A stretch of 24,068 bases of DNA from a virus, in IMG/VR virus record IMGVR_UViG_3300044617_002145, positions 1 through 24,068 of that record. One strand, given 5' to 3'. Shown one piece after another: positions 1 to 24,035 of the stretch. Both the position numbers and the translations under genes were made by a program. The notes beneath the pieces were generated by a model, which made no database searches, had not been told where the DNA came from, and saw only the letters and a list, made by a program, of their open reading frames with translations. How positions within the stretch are numbered: the first letter of the stretch is position 1; every line of letters starts with the position of its first letter.

Positions 1-1483
1 CTTGGGAGAGAAAAGCAGTCAACCGAGTGGTAGGATACGAAAGACCGTTGGGAAGCTCGTTGTGGAGTTTGCCTTCTTCCCCTGCGGCAGTCCTTCTTGC
101 GTTTTCTGCTTTTGTAACTATAAATCTCTCAACTAAAGATAGCGCCTCCTCTTTTATTTTTGTCGCAAACTCAACCTCGTTTCGAGAAGTTGCCAAAAAA
201 GACTCTACAAATTTTTTAACGATTTCTGAAGATGCCTCTTCATCTGTAAGATGACTTTCAAAAAGGGCTAGCCCGTCGAAAAAGTCTTCGCGGCGGCCGA
301 TAAAAGCCGCAAATTGAAGCGCATCGGCTTTAGCTTCGGCGATTAATGTAATTAATCTGTCCGAGGCAATTTTAATCCCTTCGAATAATTCATTATGCAA
401 TCTCCCAACTAACCCAGGTTTAACTTTTCGATCCGCCTCGACTGATGCGATTAAATCTCGCTCGATTAATGAAAACGCTTCTGCTTTGAGGCTCGCCGCC
501 ACTTCCGGGGTTCCCTTTGAAATCGCGCAATATGATTCGACAAGTTTTTTTCGAACTTCAAAAGAAAACGGGCTTGGGAGTTCGCCCGAAGAATTGTCTT
601 CGCGCCGGGCTAAAAATCTCCAGTGAGCGGCGGCTTCGGCGGCGGCTTGATCTAAAAAGGTCTGCAGGCGCGCGGATGAATAAAGAGTGCCGCCTAAAAT
701 TTCGTTGTGCAACCTGCCAATCTCCCCAGAGGAGTCTTTGCGGGTCCTCTCTACGATTGACATCACATTCCGTTCCAATAGATCGAAAGCCTGTTTTTTT
801 AACCCGGAGCCATCCGCCCCGTTATCAAGCATGATTATCCCGACTGCGAGCAAGCGGACAATTTCAGAGGGGATTGAAGGATCGAATTGTTGTGAATCCG
901 AAGTAAGCGCGGAAAAAACTATGGAGGTTTTGGCAAGCTCCTCGGCTCGCGATACGAAATTATGGTGATCGATTGCCTGTTGATACGCCTGATTAATGTA
1001 AGACTTTATGCGGCTCTGCGGGATGCGATAACGGGGCATCACTTCAAGCCCGATTCTTCCGCAAAGCCCCCCGAAGGTGTTTTGGGATGCTCCCGCTAAA
1101 GTTTGGAACTCCGACTTTCGGGCGCGGTCAATTTCGTTGTAGAGGACTTTCTCAACATAATCGAAAGCTCTTTTTTGAAGAGTATCCGCGTTTTCTAAAC
1201 TATTGTTCTCTTCCCGCCACAAGGAGAGAATCATATTTTTCGTGGCGTCGATATTGTCTAAAATTAAAAACCCGGTTGCGGGGTTTGCGGTCGTCCCGCC
1301 TTCCTGCCAGGCGAGCGCGGCTTTTTCGTATTCTTCCGTTCGCGAAATAAAATTATGGTGGTCGATCAATCGGCGTTGCGCTTCATTGATGCGCGAATCA
1401 ATACGGGCAACATTGTCCGCGGCCACTCCGTTATCGACATACGGGGCTAAATAGTTTCGGGCGGCTATGAAGCTAACAGGCAT
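1..1483 (-). CDS. Tandem-repeat virion-associated protein, C-terminus cut by window edge
   Basis: The frame is open from an ATG at 1483 to the window edge, giving 494 codons with no stop, so the gene continues outside. The start overlaps the stop of the gene before it (TAATG). The protein is built of repeats: four full units begin at about residues 27, 158, 272 and 376, and a fifth begins at 487. Each unit opens with an R-I/L-x3-I/L-x2-A-x6-H/F-x2-F-x2-R-x-E pattern and ends with G-x-L/I-G-R/K-LHNEL. Units 1 and 2 both carry IDHHNF. The predicted content is helical and charged, with no signal peptide or membrane segment. The wording of the first unit (RINEAQRRLID) recalls helical head-tail adaptor proteins of short-tailed phages, but that is a weak inference. 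Position at the end of the virion block supports a structural role. No enzyme motif seen. Confidence 0.85.
   Translation of the reverse strand, partial: MPVSFIAARNYLAPYVDNGVAADNVARIDSRINEAQRRLIDHHNFISRTEEYEKAALAWQEGGTTANPATGFLILDNIDATKNMILSLWREENNSLENADTLQKRAFDYVEKVLYNEIDRARKSEFQTLAGASQNTFGGLCGRIGLEVMPRYRIPQSRIKSYINQAYQQAIDHHNFVSRAEELAKTSIVFSALTSDSQQFDPSIPSEIVRLLAVGIIMLDNGADGSGLKKQAFDLLERNVMSIVERTRKDSSGEIGRLHNEILGGTLYSSARLQTFLDQAAAEAAAHWRFLARREDNSSGELPSPFSFEVRKKLVESYCAISKGTPEVAASLKAEAFSLIERDLIASVEADRKVKPGLVGRLHNELFEGIKIASDRLITLIAEAKADALQFAAFIGRREDFFDGLALFESHLTDEEASSEIVKKFVESFLATSRNEVEFATKIKEEALSLVERFIVTKAENARRTAAGEEGKLHNELPNGLSYPTTRLTAFLSQ
26..1405 (-). repeat. Protein-level tandem repeats, about 104-131 residues per unit
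   Basis: Four complete units lie at 1405-1013, 1012-671, 670-359 and 358-26, and a fifth starts at 25. Aligned unit starts read ARIDSRINEAQ, SRIKSYINQAY, ARLQTFLDQAA and DRLITLIAEAK. Unit ends 2-4 share GRLHNE or GKLHNE. Similarity is clear in protein but the DNA is well diverged, so the duplications are old. Confidence 0.8.
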
Positions 1484-1665
1484 TAGTTTTCAAAGGGTTG
1501 AGGTTTATTCCCGGAAGCGACCCATCGAGCGTATGCAGCGTGGCTGCCTACAACATTTTCTTTTGCCGGCGGCAACTGAATCACAACTGCCCCAATTGTT
1601 GTTTGCGCTAAAATAGCGGTGTTATCCGGGTTCGAAAAAGTAGCGGACTCAATTTCAAAGTTCAT
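1483..1665 (-). CDS. Small protein with YxxWxxxGNxPxP motif (60 aa)
   Basis: This 60-residue protein starts at ATG 1665 with ATGA overlap to the upstream gene and ends with TAATG overlap to the downstream one, so it is embedded in the operon. Its C-terminus reads YARWVASGNKPQPFE. The pattern Y-x-x-W-x-x-x-G-N-x-P-x-P is familiar from the ends of small phage proteins found beside tail fibre genes (XkdW-like and fibre-assembly-like proteins). The N-terminal half looks like a short beta segment (IGAVVIQLPP). It sits after the propeller fibre and the 239-aa beta-rich protein, so an accessory or assembly role in the tail is plausible. Real gene likely; function not established. Confidence 0.75.
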   Translation of the reverse strand: MNFEIESATFSNPDNTAILAQTTIGAVVIQLPPAKENVVGSHAAYARWVASGNKPQPFEN

Positions 1666-2381
1666 ATGTGTCTTTCTTCAAGTTGCAGGCTAACTTTGCC
1701 GGTCGCGGCGTAAACCGCGCTCGCGCTATCAATCGTCCTGTTGATGCCTAAAATAGTAGTTGAGGCATTGGCTCCGCCTACGCCTACGCGCACAGTATAA
1801 GTAACATTGCCCAAAGCAACTGGCGCGTGTGAAAAGGACATCGCAAAAGAGGAGAATTCAGTGTGTGCGGGGATCGTAAGGACCCCGGTTTGAAACGCCG
1901 TTGTGTCGGAGTCTTTGAAAATAGCCACTACCATAACCGCATTTCCAGCGCTGCTCCCAACGCGGCCGGCGACAATAGGTATGCTAATTCGGCCCTCAAC
2001 ACGATTTGTAGTCGAACTCATTCTAATAATCGATGAAACCAATACAGCGCCATTAGGAGAGGTGGGGGCTGAACCCGCCGCATAACGATTCGAGGCAGTC
2101 GAGCCATCAATAGTCGCCGTATTATTATATTCATTTGATACAAGATTTTGCCCCAATAAACTCCTCCACTGGCTAGAAGAAAAAGCCCGTATGGTGTTAT
2201 CAAGCGTGTTGTGCCATAGCGCGCTTCCGTCAATGGGGATATTCGTAGAAGAACTTTGAGAAAATAGCGCCTTTTTAGATGGCGGTGCGGTTAGCTTGCT
2301 CGCAAAAGTATTTAGTAAAGTTTGCGGAGCGGCCGGGTAAATATTTTCAGCCGTTGTGAGAGTTCCTGGGACGAGTGCCAT
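1662..2381 (-). CDS. Beta-rich virion protein, probable fibre or fibre-cap component (239 aa)
   Basis: Starts at ATG 2381, one base after the stop of the propeller fibre gene (TAATATG), and ends in an ATGA overlap with the 60-aa gene. Composition is Ser/Thr/Ala/Asn-rich with no charged clusters, typical of virion surface proteins. The first ~90 residues are polar. From about residue 100 there are alternating beta-like strands (GAVLVSSIIRMS, GRISIPIVAG, NAVMVVAIFKD, TVRVGVGG), suggesting a jelly-roll type domain. No signal peptide, membrane segment or catalytic motif seen. No family recognised. Location directly after a fibre gene favours a fibre tip, cap or decoration role; this is inference from context. 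Confidence 0.8.
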   Translation of the reverse strand: MALVPGTLTTAENIYPAAPQTLLNTFASKLTAPPSKKALFSQSSSTNIPIDGSALWHNTLDNTIRAFSSSQWRSLLGQNLVSNEYNNTATIDGSTASNRYAAGSAPTSPNGAVLVSSIIRMSSTTNRVEGRISIPIVAGRVGSSAGNAVMVVAIFKDSDTTAFQTGVLTIPAHTEFSSFAMSFSHAPVALGNVTYTVRVGVGGANASTTILGINRTIDSASAVYAATGKVSLQLEERHI

Positions 2382-2382
2382 A

Positions 2383-4176
2383 TTAAAGTTTATTGTTGTT
2401 TGGGCCTAAAATTACATTCCAATCCGGCGGGCACACGGAGGTTCGGAGTGAAACTATTCGGGCGGTTGTGCTAGTGCAGGGCGTAATGAACGCCCGCCCA
2501 TCGGGGAGAAGAACGCCGCCGCTAAACGGGGATCGCCCCAAATCTGCCCCCACGCCGGAATTTGCGCCCCCACTCCAAGCAGGCGAATTAAACGCTGACG
2601 CCGGAAGAAATGTTACAACCCCTGTAGAGTTGGAGGTGTCGGTTTCATCAATCAAAAATCCTCCAAGTTGCGCTCCCATTCCGAGTGCCAAGATAGTCCC
2701 ACAGGGAAACCTAATCGCTCCAAAACAACAATTGTTAGAGCCCTGTAGAGTAGCTCCGTGGGTAAAAAGCGAAGACCCAGTTGAATCGTTTACCCGCAAA
2801 ATATTGCCGCCAGAAATAGGGATTAGAATTTGCTGCCCATCGGCAGTCGCGACTGGGTAGCAATTAAACCCGCTGGTGAGTGTGGAATGAGTGGCGGAAT
2901 TGTTAGTGGTGTTATAAACGCCCCTTCCGGTGCTCGTAAAAAATACCGCGTTCCCACTCGAAGTCAAAACCGCTCCGTGCGCCCGAGGGGTTGTAAGATT
3001 TATCCCAGAAACAACCGCAAGTTCACCCGCGTAAGTCATCGTGTATGCTTGATTGTTGTCGTAAGGAGCTAAAAGCGCCCTTCTTTGGGTCCCGCTGCCG
3101 CTTTCTATTGGAAGCAGAACTCCGCCGCAAAAGGCTTTGTTTACTAAAGCCGAAGTGTCTCCAGAGCCGCCCCAAGACAAACTATTGGACGCACAATCGT
3201 ATATCAAAACTCGTTTTCTATTATACGGAATACATAAGACTCGATAACTATTCGCGGTGTGAGTATTGTTAGCTGCTGGCGGCATCAAAATGCCGCCCAT
3301 AAAAAGTTGAGCCGTCGGGGTAAGCGCCGGGCTCGGCTGCGATGGAATCGTTACCGAATCTTTTTCGGGATCATAAATCCAAACTTCATTGTGGTTGAAA
3401 GGAACTAAAAAAATGCGCCCGTCTGGTAAGAGAACGCTGCCGCTAAAAGCCCCGCCAAAGGTTGTTACTGATCCGGTCCCTCCGGGGAATGTTGTTTTTG
3501 GAGTAGTTATGTTGAGCAGCGGCCGCCCCAGGTTTCGATTAAAAGTTCTATAATGTAGCAAGGAAGAGACGGGAAGATTTGTTGCGCTTGAATAAGTCTC
3601 CCATTCATTAAACGCCGGGGGATTCAAAAAATAAAGTGTTCTACGAAAGTTTCCGGTAGGCACAGTGTCAGTAGCGGTTTGCGATAATTTTGTGCTCAAT
3701 ATTGTGTTTGCCTCAATTTTTTCATTAGTAACACAATTAGCTTTTAAGGCGGCGGTATTGATGGAATCCGAAGCCATTTTAGTTTCTGTGACCGCTCCGC
3801 TGGCGATACGGGAATTTTCAACAGCCGAATCTTGAATGTGCAATGACCCTACCGCTCGGTCCCCCGAGTTGGCGGATGACGCTAGCTTTGCGGCGGTGAT
3901 CGCGCCGTTGTTTATCTTATCGGTTACGACTGAACTTGCCGGGAGCAGATTGGCGAGCGTGGCTTGATTAACTGCAGTGCCCCGCCTAAAAAGCACTACA
4001 TCAGATATATTTGTAGTGGTTTGTTCGGTTTTTGCGCCGAAAATAAAATTTAATACCTTATCGTAAGTTGCTCGGTATGTCGCCCCGGCACGACTAATTA
4101 TAGAATGATCAGTGGCTGCGACATCGCCCGTTATAGAGTCTAGCCCTTCGATAGTTTTGTTTGTTGAATACGGCAT
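2383..4176 (-). CDS. Tail fibre with C-terminal seven-motif Kelch-like beta-propeller
   Basis: The ATG at 4176 gives 597 residues; a TTG at 4185 would add three residues but overlaps the upstream stop at 4178-4180, so ATG is preferred. Residues ~1-75 are a head region. Residues ~80-170 form a fibre stalk of short degenerate repeats (KINNGAITAAKLAS, NSRIASGAVTETKMAS, NEKIEANTILSTKLS). Residues ~240-585 hold seven blade-like motifs with G-G/A-x-L/V-x-P-x-G-R-x-hydrophobic-x3-P: FSGSVLLPDGRIFLVPF at ~244, then at ~293, ~349, ~400, ~439, ~484 and FSGGVLLPDGRAFITP at ~551. Intermediate blades carry I-YD turns (VWIYDPEKDS, VLIYDCASNS). This is a Kelch or galactose-oxidase-like propeller, probably the receptor-binding head of a short tail fibre. 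Cysteines occur in several blades. Stalk plus propeller is clear; binding target unknown. Confidence 0.88.
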   Translation of the reverse strand: MPYSTNKTIEGLDSITGDVAATDHSIISRAGATYRATYDKVLNFIFGAKTEQTTTNISDVVLFRRGTAVNQATLANLLPASSVVTDKINNGAITAAKLASSANSGDRAVGSLHIQDSAVENSRIASGAVTETKMASDSINTAALKANCVTNEKIEANTILSTKLSQTATDTVPTGNFRRTLYFLNPPAFNEWETYSSATNLPVSSLLHYRTFNRNLGRPLLNITTPKTTFPGGTGSVTTFGGAFSGSVLLPDGRIFLVPFNHNEVWIYDPEKDSVTIPSQPSPALTPTAQLFMGGILMPPAANNTHTANSYRVLCIPYNRKRVLIYDCASNSLSWGGSGDTSALVNKAFCGGVLLPIESGSGTQRRALLAPYDNNQAYTMTYAGELAVVSGINLTTPRAHGAVLTSSGNAVFFTSTGRGVYNTTNNSATHSTLTSGFNCYPVATADGQQILIPISGGNILRVNDSTGSSLFTHGATLQGSNNCCFGAIRFPCGTILALGMGAQLGGFLIDETDTSNSTGVVTFLPASAFNSPAWSGGANSGVGADLGRSPFSGGVLLPDGRAFITPCTSTTARIVSLRTSVCPPDWNVILGPNNNKL

Positions 4177-4177
4177 T

Positions 4178-4375
4178 TTAAACAATAATGAGTTTACGAT
4201 TTTTTAAGTTGTCCGCAACATCTGAATCATCGATACACAAAAAATATTGAGGAGTCGCAGCTTGGGTGCTGTCGTTAATAACAAGATTGAAGCCCGACTC
4301 AATGGGCGCAGCCCCGGAGCTATATTGGACATAGCCCGGATCGGTTGGTAAAATCGGCAAAGTTACGCACGACAT
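4178..4375 (-). CDS. Small hypothetical virion-block protein (65 aa)
   Basis: Starts at ATG 4375, overlapping the stop of the nozzle gene (TAATG), with a GGGGG stretch about 8 bases upstream as a ribosome site. Stops one base before the ATG of the propeller fibre. The sequence is hydrophobic-polar without a clear signal peptide or membrane span. It has a central SGFNLVINDS segment and a C-terminal FLCIDDSDVADNLKNRK stretch that could be a small beta domain. Placement between nozzle and fibre suggests a small tail accessory or fibre attachment protein, but no family is recognised. Confidence 0.7.
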   Translation of the reverse strand: MSCVTLPILPTDPGYVQYSSGAAPIESGFNLVINDSTQAATPQYFLCIDDSDVADNLKNRKLIIV

Positions 4376-6459
4376 TATATCGCACCCCCTACAGATTCTA
4401 TTTGTTTCAAGGCATGAAGCAAAAATTTGTTAAGCCTCGCCCGCCCGCGCCATTCGATTTTTATTCCAAACTCGTATCCCAAGTATAGAGGCAAGTCCGT
4501 GGAGGGGTTTTTTTGAAGCCCAGGGGTGGGAAACCTAATTTGAGGTGAATACCCCCGAGACAGAGTTTGTAGGGAGCCGCCCGCCGCGATTGTTTGCTCG
4601 GTAATAAAGCATTTTGAAAAATCAGTCCAATAAACCCAGTTGGGGTGATTGTCCGGTCGATACCACACTTTTGCCGAGAATTCTTGCGAGGGGCCCCCAC
4701 CCAAATCATCGAACCAAGCATCGCCTCGGATGAGCTTTTTCTGGCTCATTTCAGAGTCAAAATTAAAATGTTTAGTTGTGATGGAGGCTACGATAGGTCT
4801 AACGCCGGCGTCAGAAACCGAGTTGAAAGAATCAAACTCATCGTTAGATGAGATTTCCCAGAACTCATGGAAGCCGTTGTTCAGAACAACCGCAAACGCT
4901 CTATGGACTCCGTCAATCTGTCCTCCTACCAAGGACAAAATATTTAGCCCCTCCCAAAGGCCATCGTAAGCAGCCGCCGCCTTCCCATCAATAGAGGAGA
5001 CGCTTCGGAAGTCTAACACCGCGATTCCTGAATAAGTGATGGGTATGGGGGTTTTAGCGGCTTCTTCTTCAAGAGCGCTATTAGGCTGCGCTGTAACAAC
5101 TCCTTTCGGGTGACAAGTCATTAACAACCTATCATCAAAATATAAAAAACTAACATTTTCTAGCATCCAATCCGTGTCCTGATTTAAAACGGGATCAATT
5201 TCTGCGGACAACGGGGTTTGCCCGTAGCTATCAAATTCGGCTCTTGCACTCCTGTAAGTGCGAATCCCATTGCCCTCTAGGCTTCTAAAGAATATGTCCC
5301 CATTTATCGCGACGGCGGATTCTGCTGCCGATCCGATGCCTAAAAACATAACTCGTTGGAACCCGCGTGTGTTTTTCCAATCTACGCGATTTAGGTTTAC
5401 TTGATAAGATGCCGCGCCGCGTTCGCAAAAAGCAATTAGGTCCCCTTGGCCGGTCGTATCATCTTGCACAGGGATAAACTGCAAAGTTTTGACCCGCCCC
5501 ATCTCTCCCGGAAGTGAAAACGACCCGCCCTCGGCCAAGTATGTTGTTTCGTTAGTGAGCAGCAAATCCTCGTCGCTACCCCCATTGAATTTGTAAACAA
5601 ACCCGCCTAGCCCCGGAGACGCCACCGCAGCAGGGATCGTTAATTTGTTTGAGGCGGGGGTTGCTGAAATATAATATGTTCCATCAATCCTCGGAACACT
5701 ACTATGCCCGGAAATTGTGACTAAATCGCCGGGTTGAAACCCGTGATCTTCGGGGGTCGTCAAAGTCGTCGGAAAATCCACCGAGCTTGTAGTAATCTCG
5801 AGGCTTTCAGTGCTGCCGCCGTAAATAATATCCCCCGCTACAATTTCAGTGCCATCATTTACTGCAACAAACAATCTTCCGTGTCCATACGCCATCTGTT
5901 TTCCTGTTGGAACGCAAGGACTCCCAAAAGAATCGGCTCTGCGGATTGAATACCCATCAAAGACCAGCGGATGGCTAACGCCATCTTGAATGATCAAAAA
6001 TCTCTCGGCTTGGCACAAATAACATTTAAGGTTGTTAGCGAGCCTCTGCCCCGGATTTAAAAGAAAACAAGAACTTTCCGCAAAATTAAGTGACATAATC
6101 CACCCATCAACAACTAAAATGATTTGAGTGGGGTTTCCTTGGCGCGGGTCGTTGTATACAAGTGCCCCTTGAAAGAACTTTCCGCCGCGAATGTAAGTTT
6201 GAAACCTCGATCTCGAAGTCGAACCTTCGTGGGCCAAATCTAAATAATACTCGGCGTCCGAAGTATTCGTCGGGTTTCTCCAATAGTTATACGGAATTTC
6301 TTTGAACCCAGGGCGAGTCCGGGGGCCGCCGCCGCCGCGAAAGGTGCAATTCACAGCGTAAGACGCCGCCTTCACATTAATCTGCGAAGGGTCACGGCTA
6401 CCATCCATTCCGAGCATCCCTCGGAATCCATCGACCAATCGTTCAGGGTCGACGATCAT
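4375..6459 (-). CDS. Podovirus tail nozzle-like protein (tail tubular protein B type)
   Basis: The ATG at 6459 is preceded by a strong Shine-Dalgarno (GGAGGAG, ~8 bases upstream). At 694 residues it is near the size of T7 gp12-type nozzles. The N-terminus shows the usual plan of this class: short lead, then AVNCTF...GPRTRPGF at ~35-51 (compare NG...LQKRP in T7 gp12), then alternating beta strands with W-x-hydrophobic and LFVAVND...VAGDIIYG at ~196-214, as in propeller-built nozzles. Residues ~222-292 look like an inserted beta module (DHGFQPGDLVTISGH...IDGTYYIS). The C-terminal third has WYRPDNHPNW and YEFGIKIEWRGRARLNKFLLHAL, like the closing strands of nozzle proteins. It lies after capsid in the late block. 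Function by architecture and context, not by a unique signature. Confidence 0.78.
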   Translation of the reverse strand: MIVDPERLVDGFRGMLGMDGSRDPSQINVKAASYAVNCTFRGGGGPRTRPGFKEIPYNYWRNPTNTSDAEYYLDLAHEGSTSRSRFQTYIRGGKFFQGALVYNDPRQGNPTQIILVVDGWIMSLNFAESSCFLLNPGQRLANNLKCYLCQAERFLIIQDGVSHPLVFDGYSIRRADSFGSPCVPTGKQMAYGHGRLFVAVNDGTEIVAGDIIYGGSTESLEITTSSVDFPTTLTTPEDHGFQPGDLVTISGHSSVPRIDGTYYISATPASNKLTIPAAVASPGLGGFVYKFNGGSDEDLLLTNETTYLAEGGSFSLPGEMGRVKTLQFIPVQDDTTGQGDLIAFCERGAASYQVNLNRVDWKNTRGFQRVMFLGIGSAAESAVAINGDIFFRSLEGNGIRTYRSARAEFDSYGQTPLSAEIDPVLNQDTDWMLENVSFLYFDDRLLMTCHPKGVVTAQPNSALEEEAAKTPIPITYSGIAVLDFRSVSSIDGKAAAAYDGLWEGLNILSLVGGQIDGVHRAFAVVLNNGFHEFWEISSNDEFDSFNSVSDAGVRPIVASITTKHFNFDSEMSQKKLIRGDAWFDDLGGGPSQEFSAKVWYRPDNHPNWVYWTDFSKCFITEQTIAAGGSLQTLSRGYSPQIRFPTPGLQKNPSTDLPLYLGYEFGIKIEWRGRARLNKFLLHALKQIESVGGAI

Positions 6460-11637: not shown

Positions 11638-14112
11638 TTAAACTTGTTCAAACCACAAAGTTGCATCTTGAATATTGCTGCCGCCATTGCCAGAGGGGAC
11701 CGAGTAAAAGATTTCGTAAGTTTCGTAAAATCCATTTCCGGTTGAGATGTCTGATGAAACCCACGAACCAACCTCATTGGTCCCTGTTATTGCGTTATCA
11801 AGTAGCCCCGGAACGCCCTCTTCTCCGCGCCCCACTCGGTTCGATCGTAGAGAGACGCGAAGAGTCGCGTTCGCGCCGGGGGAGCGGCGGACCATAAGCC
11901 GAATCCTAAATGTCGTGTTCACGCCGAAAACTTCAGCCGGGTTGAATAAAAAGTTTCCTGTTTGCGCGATTTGATAGAACCCAAAATTTGATGGTGTAGA
12001 AGTGGCTGTTATTCCTGAAACATAGCCGCTAGCATTGAAAGTCGCGTTAACTCTATGTTGTATCTGCCCCGGCCCGACTCTTCGCGTATAAATAGAGTGC
12101 GTGTGGTTGCCCGCAGAAACCTCGCTCGCACCGGAGCCTATATTTGCAATAGCGGCGCCGCCGAGCCCCAAACTAGTGCGCCAACTGGCCCTAACTTCAC
12201 TCGCAGATATCGATAACCCATAGTTCGAAGCAAAACTTAGGCCTCGCAGTGGCTTGATATCAAGCACGTCAGGGTTGGCTTCATCTACAGTCCCCTCGGA
12301 GTCAGACCAGAAGTATCTGTGGCGAATGGAAGTAGTTTCGGAGGGCGCCAAGTCCCTAAAAATAATTCGGGCTTGTTCAGATGCAGCTGTAGACCCCGTA
12401 ATAGGTTCGGTGTTAGAAAAAGTTGACGCCGCTAACCCCGTAGGAATCCTTGCTAATGGGAAAGTCCCAGAAGTAATCATTTCTGCGCCTACAGCGGGGT
12501 TGATCTGGCGGATAGTCCAATTGCTAACATTCCCGAAAGTAGTGCCGCTTACTACTGTCCTAGAAAGGCAATTTACAGTTATACTTAAAAAATTAATTGT
12601 GGTAATTTGCCCCTCTAAAAAGCCCACTCTACCCGCGCCGTCATTCCAGTTACACCTAACAAAGTCGTTAACCGCCAATGTAGTAGAGGGCCCCGACACA
12701 ACCCAAAGTCGGCTGCCTACACTTGGGGTAATGGAACTTGTGCTAGTGTGAGAAGCCATGCCGGCTCCTTGGGCTCCTTGGAAACCTTGCGCTCCCTGAC
12801 TTCCAGTCCCGTCGGCTCCTTGGAAACCTTGGCTCCCCGACCCAATAGAGCCTTGGAAACCTTGGTTGCCAACTGCGCCCTGAAAACCCTGCGCTCCCTG
12901 ACTTCCGGTCCCGGCGGCTCCTTGGAAACCCTGCGCTCCCTGACTTCCAGTCCCGGCATTTCCTTGGAAACCTTGGTTGCCAACTGCGCCTTGGAAACCC
13001 TGCGCTCCCTGACTTCCGGTCCCGGCATTTCCTTGAAAACCTTGGTTGCCAACTGCGCCTTGGAAACCCTGCGCTCCCTGACTTCCGGTCCCGGCATTTC
13101 CTTGGAAACCTTGGTTGCCAACTGCGCCTTGGAAACCCTGCGCCCCCTGGCTTCCGGTCCCGGCATTTCCTTGGAAACCTTGCGCTCCCTGATCTCCGGT
13201 TCCGGCCGCTCCTTGGAAACCCTGCGCCCCCTGGCTTCCGGTCCCGGCGGCTCCTTGGAAACCTTGGCTACCTTGGGGGCCTCTAGCCTCAAAAGTTACA
13301 TTCTGCCACATTCCCCCCGAGCGTAAAAAATGGTAACTACTACCTGCGTGAGAAACCTGCGAATTATTATTATTAACGATAGTTTCGAAGCCAGTGACCC
13401 TAACTGTATTATTTGGGTTTAAAGCCCCGATTACAATTTGAGCGCGCGCGCCATTTGGGGCAGAATCAGAAAGAGTAATTTCCGGGCCGTCCGATCCAAA
13501 TACACTTGATGTGACATTTAATCTAACATTATAGGCATTGCTTATTTGATACGGCGGGCCACCGCTAATAGCATAAACAATGCTTTGAGAATGATGGAAG
13601 GGGATCGGCGTCTGAAAGCTGCCGCTGCTCACTGTTACTACCCCGGCCCCGGCAGGGGCTTGGCTTCCGCCCCCGGTGGCTCCTTGGAAACCCTGCGCTC
13701 CCTGACTTCCAGTCCCGGCATTTCCTTGAAAACCTTGGTTGCCGACCGCTCCTTGGAAACCTTGGTTGCCAACTGCGCCTTGGAAACCCTGCGCTCCCTG
13801 ACTTCCGGTCCCGGCATTTCCTTGGAAACCCTGCGCTCCCTGACTTCCGGTCCCGGCATTTCCTTGGAAACCTTGCGCTCCCTGACTTCCAGTCCCGGCA
13901 TTTCCTTGAAAACCTTGGTTGCCGACCGCTCCTTGGTTACCTTGGTTACCTTGGTTGCCGACTGCTCCTTGGAAACCCTGCGCCCCCTGGCTTCCGGTCC
14001 CGGCTGCGCCTTGGAAACCTTGGTTGCCGACTACTCCTTGGAAACCCTGCGCCCCCTGGCTTCCAGTTCCTTGACTCCCCGCGCCACCGCTTCCTCCGAA
14101 AAATAGTCCCAT
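11638..14112 (-). CDS. Collagen-like tail fibre with two Gly-Gln repeat tracts
   Basis: Start chosen at ATG 14112 (AAGGA seven bases upstream, just past the preceding stop at 14117); the longer frame to 14187 would overlap that gene. The product is 824 residues. Residues ~8-157 are a collagen-like tract of G-X-Y triplets (GNQGFQGNAG, GSQGAQGFQG). Residues ~158-275 form a beta-rich globular island. Residues ~276-451 are a second tract. The C-terminal ~370 residues are globular and include LARIPTGLAAS and a tail-fibre signature (WRTSLGLGGAAIANIGSG...GNHTHSIY). The tracts are almost free of proline and use Gln at the Y position. A two-residue GT step breaks the G-X-Y register in each unit. The protein should form a trimeric extended fibre. 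Host-adhesion role is inferred. Confidence 0.88.
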   Translation of the reverse strand: MGLFFGGSGGAGSQGTGSQGAQGFQGVVGNQGFQGAAGTGSQGAQGFQGAVGNQGNQGNQGAVGNQGFQGNAGTGSQGAQGFQGNAGTGSQGAQGFQGNAGTGSQGAQGFQGAVGNQGFQGAVGNQGFQGNAGTGSQGAQGFQGATGGGSQAPAGAGVVTVSSGSFQTPIPFHHSQSIVYAISGGPPYQISNAYNVRLNVTSSVFGSDGPEITLSDSAPNGARAQIVIGALNPNNTVRVTGFETIVNNNNSQVSHAGSSYHFLRSGGMWQNVTFEARGPQGSQGFQGAAGTGSQGAQGFQGAAGTGDQGAQGFQGNAGTGSQGAQGFQGAVGNQGFQGNAGTGSQGAQGFQGAVGNQGFQGNAGTGSQGAQGFQGAVGNQGFQGNAGTGSQGAQGFQGAAGTGSQGAQGFQGAVGNQGFQGSIGSGSQGFQGADGTGSQGAQGFQGAQGAGMASHTSTSSITPSVGSRLWVVSGPSTTLAVNDFVRCNWNDGAGRVGFLEGQITTINFLSITVNCLSRTVVSGTTFGNVSNWTIRQINPAVGAEMITSGTFPLARIPTGLAASTFSNTEPITGSTAASEQARIIFRDLAPSETTSIRHRYFWSDSEGTVDEANPDVLDIKPLRGLSFASNYGLSISASEVRASWRTSLGLGGAAIANIGSGASEVSAGNHTHSIYTRRVGPGQIQHRVNATFNASGYVSGITATSTPSNFGFYQIAQTGNFLFNPAEVFGVNTTFRIRLMVRRSPGANATLRVSLRSNRVGRGEEGVPGLLDNAITGTNEVGSWVSSDISTGNGFYETYEIFYSVPSGNGGSNIQDATLWFEQV
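12760..13285 (-). repeat. Collagen tract 2, with exact-period 69-bp DNA repeats
   Basis: The tract encodes repeated 23-residue units (seven G-X-Y triplets plus a GT step). At the DNA level near-identical 69-bp units start at 12961, 13030 and 13099, with a diverged fourth from 13168 and partial units on either side. The DNA is prone to slippage, so copy number may differ between relatives. Confidence 0.85.
13640..14090 (-). repeat. Collagen tract 1
   Basis: Same GFQG, GNQG, GSQGAQ building blocks as tract 2, but with more mixed unit order, including a GNQGNQGNQG run at about 13930-13960. Long near-identical stretches are shared with tract 2, which could permit recombination within the gene. 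Confidence 0.82.
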
Positions 14113-14116
14113 AAAA

Positions 14117-14494
14117 TTATCCTTGAATTGCGTGAAACCGCTTGCTCGCCACAGAACAAACAATCTGGACTTCACTACTAGGAACAATCGAAGACTCGGC
14201 TACAAAACCGCCGCCGCCTTTAGCTAAAAGAATACCTTGAGGAGTGCCGGCGTTGGGGGTGCTTCCGATGCCTAAATACATATCGGTGTCGGACAGATTT
14301 TGGACGAGCAAAAATTTCCTATCTGCTTTAGCAGGGAAGACAACAGTAGCGGTGGCGGGGCTAGCGGAAGTTGCCGAAGTAGTAGAAGCCGAAACAGGAA
14401 TCGCCTCATTCAAAATAGAGTTGATTTTTTGAAGCGATCTTTCCGGCGTATCCATCTGCGCCGGGGTGTTGTTTTCAGTGTAATACGAGGGCAT
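14117..14494 (-). CDS. Small beta-sandwich-like virion protein (125 aa)
   Basis: ATG at 14494, 38 bases after the LRR gene stop, one of the few real gaps in the block. The first ~50 residues are polar and Ser/Thr/Ala-rich. The remainder is a compact beta domain: VVFPAKADRKFLLVQNLSDTD, MYLGIGSTPNAGTPQGILLAKGGGGF, VPSSEVQIVCSVASKRFHAI. This plan (R-K-x-L-x-x-Q-N-x-S-x-T/D ... GI-L-x-x-GG ... V-x3-V) is seen in many small phage virion proteins next to tail and fibre genes. It is followed after four bases by the collagen fibre ATG, suggesting it works with that fibre, possibly at its attachment point. Confidence 0.75.
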   Translation of the reverse strand: MPSYYTENNTPAQMDTPERSLQKINSILNEAIPVSASTTSATSASPATATVVFPAKADRKFLLVQNLSDTDMYLGIGSTPNAGTPQGILLAKGGGGFVAESSIVPSSEVQIVCSVASKRFHAIQG

Positions 14495-14532: not shown

Positions 14533-16761
14533 TTAATTTTCTACAATCTGCCAGCCTCGGCTAATCGCTTGGTTTTTGCCAAAAGTGTAAGTAGACCCAG
14601 AGTAGGGGCCGGGGTTGCCAGAAACATCAACAATGTTGGTATCGCCGGGATCGGTTGATGGGACTATACTGCGGGTCCCTAAACGAGACAATACTAGCCC
14701 TAATGCCGAAGAGTTGAAGTTGTTTAAACTAAAATTAAAACCTTTTCTGCAAACCGCGTTAAAGTTTAAAAACAAATTGCTCAAATTGCAGTCCAGCAAA
14801 CTTAAATTATCCCATCGCGGATTAGGCTTGTTCACAAAAGAAAGCGTCAGATTTCGGTCCAAACTTAAACTTGGGCAATTAATTGCCAGTAGTGTTTTAA
14901 GCCACACCGGTCCGAACTCCCAGGCCGGGTAATTTGCTACGCTCGCAATCGGGAGCGCTGGGCGAACCGGGGCGCCGTGCTCCGCGGTCAGACCCGTCCA
15001 TAGCTGCGTCAAATTAGGGTTATTGGACACATCGCAGTAATCAAGCCCGGTCAATCCCCACAAAGAAACTCGCGTTAGGTTCGGGCAATCGGTGCATATA
15101 AGTTTAGAAAGAAAAGGAGTGCTTCTCCAAGAGCTGCCTGGGTAGTGAGCCATCGTAAAACTAAAGCCGCTATAATTAACCGACGTAATATCTAATTTAT
15201 CCGGGTTTTTCAATGCATGAGATTTAGGATCTGTAGGAACGGCATCGATTCTGTCAGCAATAACAAAATCTGTAGAAGAGCTAGTCGTGCTGCCCCAGTC
15301 CAAATAATTGTAATTATTGACAATATAAGGCGTATTCTGCGGTTGCGTATACCCATTATTTAAAAGCGTAGCGCCTGTAAAAACAACAATATCCCCAGGT
15401 TTAATTCTGAAGCCGCCCCCGTTTGCGGCCCTAAATAAACGAGTAGAGTTGTTAAAAGTGGCGGATACGAGTCTAGCTTTGTTCGCAATATAGTTTGACG
15501 AAGTCGTAGACAACCCCAGAACACTTATCGGGTTGCCTGAAATATTGAAATATCTCAACCCGTTCGCTCCTTGCCATTCGAAACCATCAGAGAAAGGATT
15601 TTGTGTAAACAAGTTTGTTGAAATATCGCATTCCGTCAAACGATATGTATTTAGATAGACCCAAAAAGGATTGCCGTTTTGATCAAGTGCGTAGTTGCCC
15701 GCCGGGTCTAACGGCTGTTCCGCGTTGGGGGTCGCCGTAAAACTTCTAGGGTATTCACCGGGGTAAGCCAGTGAGGTAATAGAGTTATTATTTGCATACA
15801 AATATCTCAAGTCTACTAAAGACGAAACATCGAGCGTATTAAGGTTATTATAAGAAACATCTAAATATTTTATTTGATACGGGGCGCCGCTTACACTTGG
15901 CGGGAAATCAATCGAATCGATCTGGCAATGATTGCATTTAATTTCGACAGTGTTGATCCAATCCCCGTTTAAAAAATTTTCGTCCAAAGTAGTGAGGTTT
16001 GGGTTAAATGAGCAGTCGAAAACCTTGGGCCGCTCAATTCCGAAATCCTCGTAATAATACGCGCCAAAATCCACACTATTAAAATTATTAAACGATATAT
16101 TTAAAAACCGAGGGATAATCAAACCTTGTGCGAATCCTGGCGGCGCAAACGCGCCAGAAAGATTGTTGTCAGAAATGTTATATTCAACCCAAATCATATG
16201 ATTTGGTAAATCTAAATACGGGATTTCAGAGAAAAGGTTTGCCTGCAAATCCAAAACACTCATACTTCTTATTGGCAAACCAGTTACAGGGCTTGTGTAT
16301 TCAGAGCGGCCTAGCGAATCCAGCCCCAAAAACCTTTGGTGATTTAAAAAATTACTGGAAGCACGAAAATATTCAACCCACTCGCACCCAGTAACATCAA
16401 CATAGTCTAAAGAATTTCTTGATATGTCTATATCAACAAAAGAAGTTCCTTGCAAATAAAGTTTTTGCAAATTTGAATCGGTTAAATAAAAAGTAGACAG
16501 GGAGTGAAATGTAGCGCCGTCGACTTCATAATAAAATTTTGGATCAAAATAATTCATTTTAATCTCAACACCAGTGGGGAACCTCCAACCTTCGGCAAGT
16601 ATCTCCACGTCGCCGTAAAAAAAATCGACTATTTCTTGGTCGTCGGCCCAGTTATAAATTAAAAAAGGTTCTACTGTGATTACTGAAGCTCCATTTGAGG
16701 CGAATTGAAGCGCCACCTTGTTAAGGTTTTTTTGATTTAAGTTCCCTCTAATGGATAACAT
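14533..16761 (-). CDS. Leucine-rich-repeat virion protein, probable adhesin
   Basis: The ATG at 16761 follows the preceding stop by one base (TAATATG) and is preferred over a TTG at 16773; product 742 residues. Residues ~1-90 form an N-terminal domain. From ~90 to the end there are about a dozen irregular leucine-rich repeats with L-x-x-L/F-D/N-I/V-S-x-N-x-L/F cores: IKYLDVSYNNLNTLDVSS, LRYLYANNNSITSL, LRYFNISGNPISVLGLS, LDYCDVSNNPNLTQL, TNIVDVSGNPG. A ~95-residue non-LRR island (GFRIKPGDIVVFTGAT...) interrupts them near residues 430-520. It ends GWQIVEN, an ending common to LRR surface proteins. No signal peptide or sortase motif, so it is a virion part rather than a secreted protein. The gene looks more AT-rich than its neighbours, suggesting transfer. 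LRR call is firm; receptor-binding role is inferred. Confidence 0.85.
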   Translation of the reverse strand: MLSIRGNLNQKNLNKVALQFASNGASVITVEPFLIYNWADDQEIVDFFYGDVEILAEGWRFPTGVEIKMNYFDPKFYYEVDGATFHSLSTFYLTDSNLQKLYLQGTSFVDIDISRNSLDYVDVTGCEWVEYFRASSNFLNHQRFLGLDSLGRSEYTSPVTGLPIRSMSVLDLQANLFSEIPYLDLPNHMIWVEYNISDNNLSGAFAPPGFAQGLIIPRFLNISFNNFNSVDFGAYYYEDFGIERPKVFDCSFNPNLTTLDENFLNGDWINTVEIKCNHCQIDSIDFPPSVSGAPYQIKYLDVSYNNLNTLDVSSLVDLRYLYANNNSITSLAYPGEYPRSFTATPNAEQPLDPAGNYALDQNGNPFWVYLNTYRLTECDISTNLFTQNPFSDGFEWQGANGLRYFNISGNPISVLGLSTTSSNYIANKARLVSATFNNSTRLFRAANGGGFRIKPGDIVVFTGATLLNNGYTQPQNTPYIVNNYNYLDWGSTTSSSTDFVIADRIDAVPTDPKSHALKNPDKLDITSVNYSGFSFTMAHYPGSSWRSTPFLSKLICTDCPNLTRVSLWGLTGLDYCDVSNNPNLTQLWTGLTAEHGAPVRPALPIASVANYPAWEFGPVWLKTLLAINCPSLSLDRNLTLSFVNKPNPRWDNLSLLDCNLSNLFLNFNAVCRKGFNFSLNNFNSSALGLVLSRLGTRSIVPSTDPGDTNIVDVSGNPGPYSGSTYTFGKNQAISRGWQIVEN

Positions 16762-16762
16762 A

Positions 16763-17128
16763 TTAAGCAACAATCCATTCAGATGATGATATTTTTATCA
16801 AAACCTGATTATTCGTGCCGGGGACTTCTATTAAAGTAACCCCAGAGGATGCCGAAATCTTCACGCTATTATCGTCCACCGGCAATATCAATATTTGGGT
16901 CCCTATAGGGAAATCCACAGAAGTGTTACTTGGAACATTGACAGTCCAATTCGTGTTTGTCAGAATAAGGCTCCCCGCATCTTCCAAGATTAGCCCCCAT
17001 GTAGAAGCTGCCGCAGCAGTGGGCAATCTCCGAATAGGGACATTGAAAGGGGCCGCCCCGATCTCATCATAGTTAGGGACTGGGTATAACTCCCCGTTGA
17101 ATGGGTTAAACTTATAGCTCGCGAGCAT
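16763..17128 (-). CDS. Small fibre-type beta domain protein (121 aa)
   Basis: ATG at 17128, three bases after the HNH-like gene stop. The first ~40 residues look like an anchoring segment (FNPFNGELYPVPNYDEIGAAP). Residues ~43-121 match the widespread phage fibre module with plan LxLxDAGxxLxxTN...TVxVPxNxSVxFPIGTxI...SGVTLI...VLIKISSxEWIV. In other phages this module sits at the end of long tail proteins; here it is nearly the whole gene. It directly precedes the LRR gene and may anchor or cap that protein. Module resemblance is good; role inferred. Confidence 0.77.
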   Translation of the reverse strand: MLASYKFNPFNGELYPVPNYDEIGAAPFNVPIRRLPTAAAASTWGLILEDAGSLILTNTNWTVNVPSNTSVDFPIGTQILILPVDDNSVKISASSGVTLIEVPGTNNQVLIKISSSEWIVA

Positions 17129-22708: not shown

Positions 22709-22823
22709 CACAGGTAAAAACATTCACTTTCAAGGGGTTGCGTGTCCAATGGGTTATTATTTTTATACTACAATATGACATTTTTTGAACGATTTGGAAC
22801 AAACTTTTGTCTACAGCCCCAAC

Positions 22824-24035
22824 ATGAAAATCCAGCTTCTCACAATCGGCAGGCACAAAATGGAAGTAACCTGTGGCGGGGCGAAGGTGACAATTCGACA
22901 AGTCCGAAACGGAGCCTACAAAAATTTTAGGCTTGACTGGAAGGTTGGGGCTCGAGCGCAGCGCCGATCCATTTCCGATGCGGAGAAGGCGGTCGAGGAA
23001 GCGCGCAACATTGTCAAGAATCTTGCGAGAGCAGAAGGAGAGAAGACTCTGGTCCGAAGCGAAGATGTTGTTTACTACCGCGAATGCCAGAAGCGCCTCG
23101 GGTCTGTGCCGCTTCACGAGGCGGTCGCGTTTTATTTGAAATTCCATAATGTCGATGCGCCGAGAAAGACGCTCGCTACGATTATCGACGAATTCATTGA
23201 AGATCGCAAACGCCGGGTTCTCTCCAACCGATACTACCAGTCGATCCGATACGAAACCAAAGTGTGGAAAAATTGGGCGGGCAGCCGAACTCTCCAATCC
23301 CTAACTACAGAGGAGATCGATGCGTTTTTCGATGATTGCGGGTATGGGCCGGTCACCAAAAGAAATCTGCTGCGCACTCTCAAGGCCCTGGAAATTTTTG
23401 CGGCAAAAAAGAGATACCTCCCGCGCGATTTCGATGCCGCATCCGACCGAGTTTCGATTCCAGCGGCTCGCAAAAAAACCTACTCGGTTTTTACTCCCGA
23501 AGAATTGATGCGCTTATTCGTTGTCCTCGACAAAGACGAACTCGCGTATGTAGCGACAATGGCGTTTGCGGGTTCTCGGCGAGCGGAACTGGAAAGACTA
23601 GAGGCTCAAAAAATCGATCCATCAGAAAACTTCGCTCGCATCGATGCGGAGATTGCCAAAAAAGGGACTGCGCGAGTAATTGAGCTGCCGGACAACTTGA
23701 AGCAATGGCTACAAATCGTAGACCTGCCTTCTAAAGGCAGTTTGACAACCACTAAAAAGGTCGCCAACATTTCAAGTAGGAAAGACCGCCTCTCTTCCGT
23801 TGGATTGGAGTGGAAACAAAATGTGCTGCGGCACTCCTTTTGCTCCTACCATTTGGCCCTACATCGCAACGCCGATTTGACATCAGAACTCGCCGGAAAC
23901 TCTCCTCAAATGCTCAAAGAGCATTACAAGTCTTTAGTGGCTCCGACCGCTGCGACCGATTGGTTCAACATAACCCCGCAGTCAGTGCGGGAATACGCAG
24001 CAAAAAAAGATTTGACTCGGTTATTAACTTGGTGA
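22824..24035 (+). CDS. int: Tyrosine recombinase / phage integrase
   Basis: ATG at 22824 gives 403 residues; a TTG at 22785 would add 13. Numbering from ATG. Residues ~1-65 form an N-terminal arm-type DNA-binding region (VTIRQVRNGAYKNFRLDWK). Residues ~75-110 hold YYRECQKRLGSVPLHEAVAFY, and ~115-215 form the core-binding SAM-like domain. The catalytic domain has the box I arginine in AGSRRAELERL (~R252/253), a Lys near 280 (AKKGTARVIEL), the second arginine R336 in NVLRHSF, and the nucleophile Y368 in LKEHYKSL. Two usual histidines are replaced by Asn: HxLR is N-V-L-R (N333), and GH is GN in AGNSPQM. I associate this pattern, with a WFNITP tail, with Verrucomicrobiota-type integrases. It likely acts at the attP candidate upstream. 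Confidence 0.93.
   Translation: MKIQLLTIGRHKMEVTCGGAKVTIRQVRNGAYKNFRLDWKVGARAQRRSISDAEKAVEEARNIVKNLARAEGEKTLVRSEDVVYYRECQKRLGSVPLHEAVAFYLKFHNVDAPRKTLATIIDEFIEDRKRRVLSNRYYQSIRYETKVWKNWAGSRTLQSLTTEEIDAFFDDCGYGPVTKRNLLRTLKALEIFAAKKRYLPRDFDAASDRVSIPAARKKTYSVFTPEELMRLFVVLDKDELAYVATMAFAGSRRAELERLEAQKIDPSENFARIDAEIAKKGTARVIELPDNLKQWLQIVDLPSKGSLTTTKKVANISSRKDRLSSVGLEWKQNVLRHSFCSYHLALHRNADLTSELAGNSPQMLKEHYKSLVAPTAATDWFNITPQSVREYAAKKDLTRLLTW

Follow-up and report, generated by a model that had tools for sequence, protein, structure and literature searches.

The fibre gene and its surroundings

The stretch of DNA analysed here (the window), an IMG/VR record 24,068 bases long, sits within a record of 71,940 bases at 99–100% identity. 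The reading frame for which the first-pass annotation proposed a short-tail fibre (2383..4176) is real and lies on the minus strand, as do all the fibre features given below; it encodes 597 amino acids plus the stop codon, and while a TTG at 4185 offers an upstream start option, the orthologues begin at the same ATG as the start at 4176. Residues 1–72 (3961..4176), 30–42% identical in orthologues, are the presumed virion anchor. They are followed by a stalk (residues 73–171; 3664..3960) that matches the tail-fibre family phrog_892 with an E value of 9.3e-14, which bears out the fibre stalk named in the annotation; in tblastn against phage records the matches, weak and often in genes annotated as tail fibres, were confined to this same region. 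A linker and neck helix (residues 172–220, helix 201–215; 3517..3663), assigned from AlphaFold2 and DSSP at low to moderate pLDDT, lead into the C-terminal domain. The search of Pfam and NCBIfam with the window protein itself and the search of PDB sequences with the window protein alone gave no match. The protein ends in a conserved tail, ILGPNNNKL (2386..2439).

The fibre is encoded among virion genes, namely a capsid-like and a nozzle-like gene, with a terminase in the same record. Three related records (72,313, 72,742 and 24,813 bases) share the virion-gene order of the window, which in the relatives runs capsid-like gene (56–61% identity), nozzle-like gene (55%), fibre (29–35%), 239-residue gene (32%) and repetitive gene (53%); the fibre and the 239-residue gene thus diverge fastest, their neighbours being otherwise mostly 53–58% identical. 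Within the fibre orthologues, blades 1 and 7 of the domain described below are the best kept (52–72%) and blades 5 and 6 the least (13–30%). The nozzle-like gene (4375..6459, minus strand), next but one upstream of the fibre and syntenic in the three related records, has no PHROG or Pfam match, and its putative nozzle role is suggested by sequence and position. Directly downstream of the fibre, the syntenic 239-residue gene (1662..2381, minus strand), about as fast evolving as the fibre and with no family match, may encode a second tip or a partner of the fibre.

Several other features of these records deserve mention. An 849-residue collagen-like fibre protein (11638..14187, minus strand; phrog_6320, E 3.5e-47) is a second fibre candidate, and a 746-residue leucine-rich-repeat protein (14533..16773, minus strand; LRR_4, E 1.4e-7) is encoded amid the phage genes, a position at which such proteins are unusual. 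A repetitive protein (2..1483, minus strand) is cut by the record end, the protein of a relative having 1,122 residues; in the 71,940-base parent the first 106 bases of this segment recur at steps of about 312 bases, and again near the other contig end, which points to a parent that is probably circular or permuted, with a possible misassembly at that place. In a related phage, the homologue of the capsid gene gave two separate matches, about 260 bases apart (L191, 11669–11931; L193, 7465–7727), which suggests an insertion. Beside the terminase and on the opposite strand lies an integrase-like gene (22785..24035, plus strand; Phage_integrase, E 0.0011, below the cut-off), and the phage may be temperate.

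Predicted fold of the C-terminal domain

AlphaFold2, run as a monomer on residues 176–597 with 46 relatives, returned a propeller model (pLDDT 79.8, pTM 0.84) in which the strands fall in seven groups, with A strands at or near residues 244, 292, 349, 403, 439, 484 and 551. On the basis of this model and its DSSP assignment, and for blades 1, 2 and 7 also of a blade profile, the blades were delimited as blade 1 (residues 244–291; 3304..3447), blade 2 (292–348; 3133..3303), blade 3 (349–402; 2971..3132), blade 4 (403–438; 2863..2970), blade 5 (439–483; 2728..2862), blade 6 (484–550; 2527..2727) and strands A–C of blade 7 (551–579; 2440..2526), blades 4–6 being modelled at lower confidence. A strand at residues 221–224 (3505..3516; DSSP E46–49 of the domain) would, from the predicted topology, supply the missing D strand of blade 7 and close the ring. 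The best superpositions of the model are on seven-bladed propellers (virginiamycin B lyase, Z 27.9, rmsd 2.7 over 293 residues). The monomer model is thus a closed ring of seven four-stranded blades, and neither of the two outcomes named beforehand as fatal to the propeller assignment, an open fold or fewer than six blades, was obtained.

The Kelch/galactose-oxidase affiliation shows at the level of the family described in the next section. One member, L031, is modelled with seven regular ABCD blades, the strands recurring every 44 residues (pLDDT 91.9, pTM 0.91), and for this model Foldseek ranks designed Kelch proteins, Keap1 and galactose oxidase highest; the family profile finds the designed Kelch propeller SAKe6AE (E 4.5e-13) and galactose oxidase (E 4e-11) among PDB sequences, the matches ranging from 4e-13 to 1e-7. 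Pfam Kelch_1 is found in 6 of 47 family members and is absent from the window protein alone; the many other Pfam matches in family members (DUF4651, Rap1a, TGS and others) were set aside, since repetitive sequence had probably produced them. The canonical Kelch motif (PF01344) consists of a double glycine after strand B together with a conserved tyrosine and a conserved tryptophan. In the family consensus VFCVP...IYDP...TDTLTTP the tyrosine is retained, but VP replaces the diglycine and the tryptophan is missing, which sets the family apart from galactose oxidase and the SAKe proteins despite the shared fold and profile match; as the double glycine is absent after strand B, the domain is called a Kelch-like fold and not a canonical Kelch-motif protein. 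Taken together, the stalk match, the AlphaFold2 model, the superposition and the family profile support the annotation in its central claim, a C-terminal seven-bladed propeller of the Kelch/galactose-oxidase type on a tail fibre.

The motif count and the disulfides proposed in that annotation fared less well. Seven motifs of the GGVLLPDGR type had been claimed, which is an overstatement, though seven blades are predicted: the strict pattern G-[GA]-x-[LV]-x-P-x-G-R has a single copy, at residue 553, joined by a second (GSVLLPDGR at residue 246) if G-S is allowed. A looser half-motif is present four times (residues 246, 294, 351 and 553), and at least three copies were reached in none of 10,000 shuffles. 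With the blade profile built from relatives, strong scores of 47.0 and 33.3 bits were obtained for two blades, 1 and 7, and a partial one of 15.1 bits for blade 2, the others lying at noise level. As for the cysteines, only two of the ten in the window protein, C315 in strand B of blade 2 and C567 in blade 7, are kept in a three-way orthologue alignment, and disulfides in several blades were rejected because of this poor conservation; in the wider family the conserved cysteine is one per blade, within strand B.

A wider family of viral propellers

When viral contigs were searched at the DNA level with a degenerate pattern encoding GVLLPDGR[VI]F, 101 stretches came up; since blade positions 1–10 are fixed by this pattern, framework statistics were calculated anew from the remaining positions. 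Most complete copies consist of seven blades of about 44 residues ending in NK[LFY], on unrelated N-termini. By profile, seven or eight matches were counted in 58 of 66 complete reading frames (near-copies among them). In those with eight, a half-blade preceding the first full motif typically accounts for the extra match, which is what closure of the ring by an N-terminal strand would produce. The N-terminal carriers of the relatives vary, belonging to tail-fibre, minor-tail-protein and further families without assignment. A tail of the form [SG]xxxN[KHP]x is near-universal at the very end of the propeller proteins (for example L031, L066 and L104), 67 of 71 distinct C-termini ending in N[KHP] plus one or two residues. 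With its seven blades, its NNNKL end and 25–35% identity to members, the window protein shares the family traits.

Outside viral contigs, no relative of the window domain was found in a first scan of bacterial genomes, and a second scan with the family profile returned mostly cousins at 25–38% identity, which look like ordinary cellular propellers, and a single match at 51% on a 10-kb contig of an Afipia metagenome-assembled genome; no closely related cellular family emerged from the bacterial genomes scanned. In tblastn of the propeller against phages and plasmids, only Cylindrospermopsis phage Cr-LKS4 (E 8) and chance plasmid matches appeared. Among the best BFVD matches of the propeller is a Hokovirus collagen-repeat protein, hinting at the same tip on fibres of giant viruses. 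No paper describing a GGVLLPDGRVF propeller family was found in the open-access papers searched, and the window protein is best regarded as an old, diverged member of a large viral propeller family that is itself apparently undescribed.

Diversification of the blade face

The annotation had proposed that repeated motifs allow blade-by-blade evolution of receptor binding. Among 93 adjacent blade pairs from relatives of the window protein, blade positions 14, 15, 39, 40 and 43 carry 282 amino-acid against 10 silent changes, whereas positions outside these five and outside the search pattern carry 183 against 329; the Fisher p of about 3e-75 is flattered, the pairs not being independent and the positions having been picked from the same data. 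At the five positions, the second codon position changes at 2.4 times the rate of four-fold silent sites when all pairs are counted (protein bootstrap 1.9–3.0) and at 10 times that rate in the closest pairs (5.7–15.8), compared with 0.2–0.4 of it in the framework. Comparison between different proteins agrees with the blade pairs, the framework being about 95% identical and the variable positions mostly 11–51%, and the blades of phage Cr-LKS4 (described below) agree as well. At silent sites, the identity of blades is 0.77 when they belong to one protein and 0.35 when they come from different proteins, and a recent amplification or homogenisation of blades is therefore indicated. When mapped on the models, positions 14–15 follow strand B, 39–40 lie in the D–A loop and 43 opens strand A, so that in an antiparallel four-stranded blade the five positions, in the B–C and D–A loops, are predicted to share one face.

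This pattern belongs to the wider family. In the subfamily of the window protein, of which few copies are available, there is no sign of diversifying selection, the best close pair (98% DNA identity) showing 9 amino-acid and 23 silent changes. Blade-by-blade diversification is thus upheld for five loop positions of the family but not for the subfamily of the fibre from which it was proposed. At family blade positions 14, 15, 40 and 43, 86% of four-fold codons end in C or T, as against 51% in the framework; this bias fits rapid amino-acid turnover, yet is not wholly accounted for by it.

Comparison with known systems

Propeller heads on phage fibres, described in the annotation as less common than pectin-lyase or knob tips, are less rare than that wording implies. 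The receptor-binding protein of Staphylococcus phage phi11 has a helical stem followed by a beta-propeller thought to bind surface sugar, and resembles the window fibre in this architecture and in the N-terminal strand that closes the last blade, but has five blades and a mid-protein propeller followed by a C-terminal tower; the likeness is one of architecture (PMC4901313). PhiKZ gp131C carries a seven-bladed C-terminal propeller at the virion periphery with suspected receptor binding, although it is a large myovirus baseplate protein, and PRD1 P2 is another phage receptor-binding protein with a propeller (PMC4901313). For phage CBB, a jumbo myovirus, Kelch-type propeller domains are described, one of them found in virions (PMC5259590). 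The propeller of the window fibre is one further case of something already known.

Highly repetitive propellers occur in cells and in some viruses (PMC9218822), and the closest parallel to the evolution of the family is found in the fungal HET-D/HET-E WD40 domains, whose near-identical blades show concerted evolution, with diversifying selection on four codons of the d–a loop and the b–c turn (PMC1805685). Homogenisation of blades within a gene and a few diversifying loop codons are common to both, and the very fast change at a few surface residues in the phage family resembles that of recognition proteins of the immune type; the HET-D/HET-E blades are nevertheless WD40 blades of intracellular fungal NLRs (PMC1805685), and the analogy is one of process and not of homology. 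The near-identity of blades, seen in relatives, is not displayed by the window protein itself, whose blades are old, unequal and diverged.

In an isolated phage, the family is exemplified by Cr-LKS4 WHL30579.1, with seven C-terminal blades of 44 residues and the ending LNKF. Its first three blades are identical in DNA, and blades 1–6 differ only at the residue before GG and at positions 12–17, so that the differences are almost confined to the B–C and D–A hot spots. It differs from the window domain in its near-identical blades of the GGVLAPNGR type, and the match between the two is very weak (26%, E 8).

Interpretation

With good confidence, the gene codes for a fibre by which a tailed phage, probably a short-tailed one, binds its receptor, with a closed seven-bladed propeller of the Kelch/galactose-oxidase type at the tip. 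The order of a phage tail fibre, a stalk (phrog_892) and then a C-terminal globular tip (the predicted propeller), is found here. The N-terminus would fix the fibre to the virion, the stalk would project outwards, probably as a trimer, and the closed seven-bladed propeller at the C-terminus would form the tip, most likely binding a host surface molecule by the face of the B–C and D–A loops; we infer that the window protein uses the same face as the family. This reading is supported by the gene, the stalk match, the predicted fold, the synteny of the virion genes, the fast divergence of the fibre and the limitation of the family's diversification to that face.

Two other functions of the propeller were considered, both improbable and to a similar degree. 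Enzymatic cleavage or modification of host surface polymers (by a lyase, oxidase or depolymerase activity) in place of binding is suggested by the nearest folds, which include virginiamycin B lyase and galactose oxidase, but the conserved residues recur in each blade and look structural, and the family varies most on the face that usually holds the active site of propellers. A structural or assembly domain, acting as a spacer or as a docking site, for example for the 239-residue product, with the receptor binder elsewhere, would be in agreement with the equally fast divergence of the downstream gene (32%) and with the collagen-like and leucine-rich-repeat proteins also encoded in the window; the propeller is nonetheless placed at the C-terminus of the fibre, relatives bear it on unrelated carriers without the 239-residue neighbour, and rapid change on one face suits host contact better than a structural joint. 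As to the origin of the loop variation in the family, C or T third bases (86% against 51%) are what adenine-directed mutagenesis of AAY codons by a diversity-generating retroelement would leave, but the same mark would follow from a rapid exchange of amino acids among codons ending in C or T, and lysine, glutamine and glutamate codons are present too; the retroelement, very improbable, was rejected because an RVT_1 reverse transcriptase was absent from all 50 records searched, the 71,940-base parent included, in a search whose control worked.

For the receptor-binding fibre and its relatives, a broader proposal has about an even chance of being right, namely that these proteins form a virus-specific class of receptor-binding propellers: one blade would be amplified and homogenised again and again within the gene, selection would drive the diversification of five loop residues in each blade (about 35 on one face) without a retroelement, and the whole would have moved among unrelated tail proteins; the window protein would be an aged member of this class, and the class a phage counterpart of the fungal HET-E repertoire. 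What is possibly new is a virus family whose scaffold is fixed and of which one face evolves fast, and the isolated phage Cr-LKS4 makes this proposal testable. If it is true, many different tail proteins of phages would share a modular binding tip in which seven blades provide an unchanging scaffold for a ring of variable residues; this would represent a testable way of matching changing host surfaces without a diversity-generating retroelement, as well as a natural repeat scaffold for binder design.
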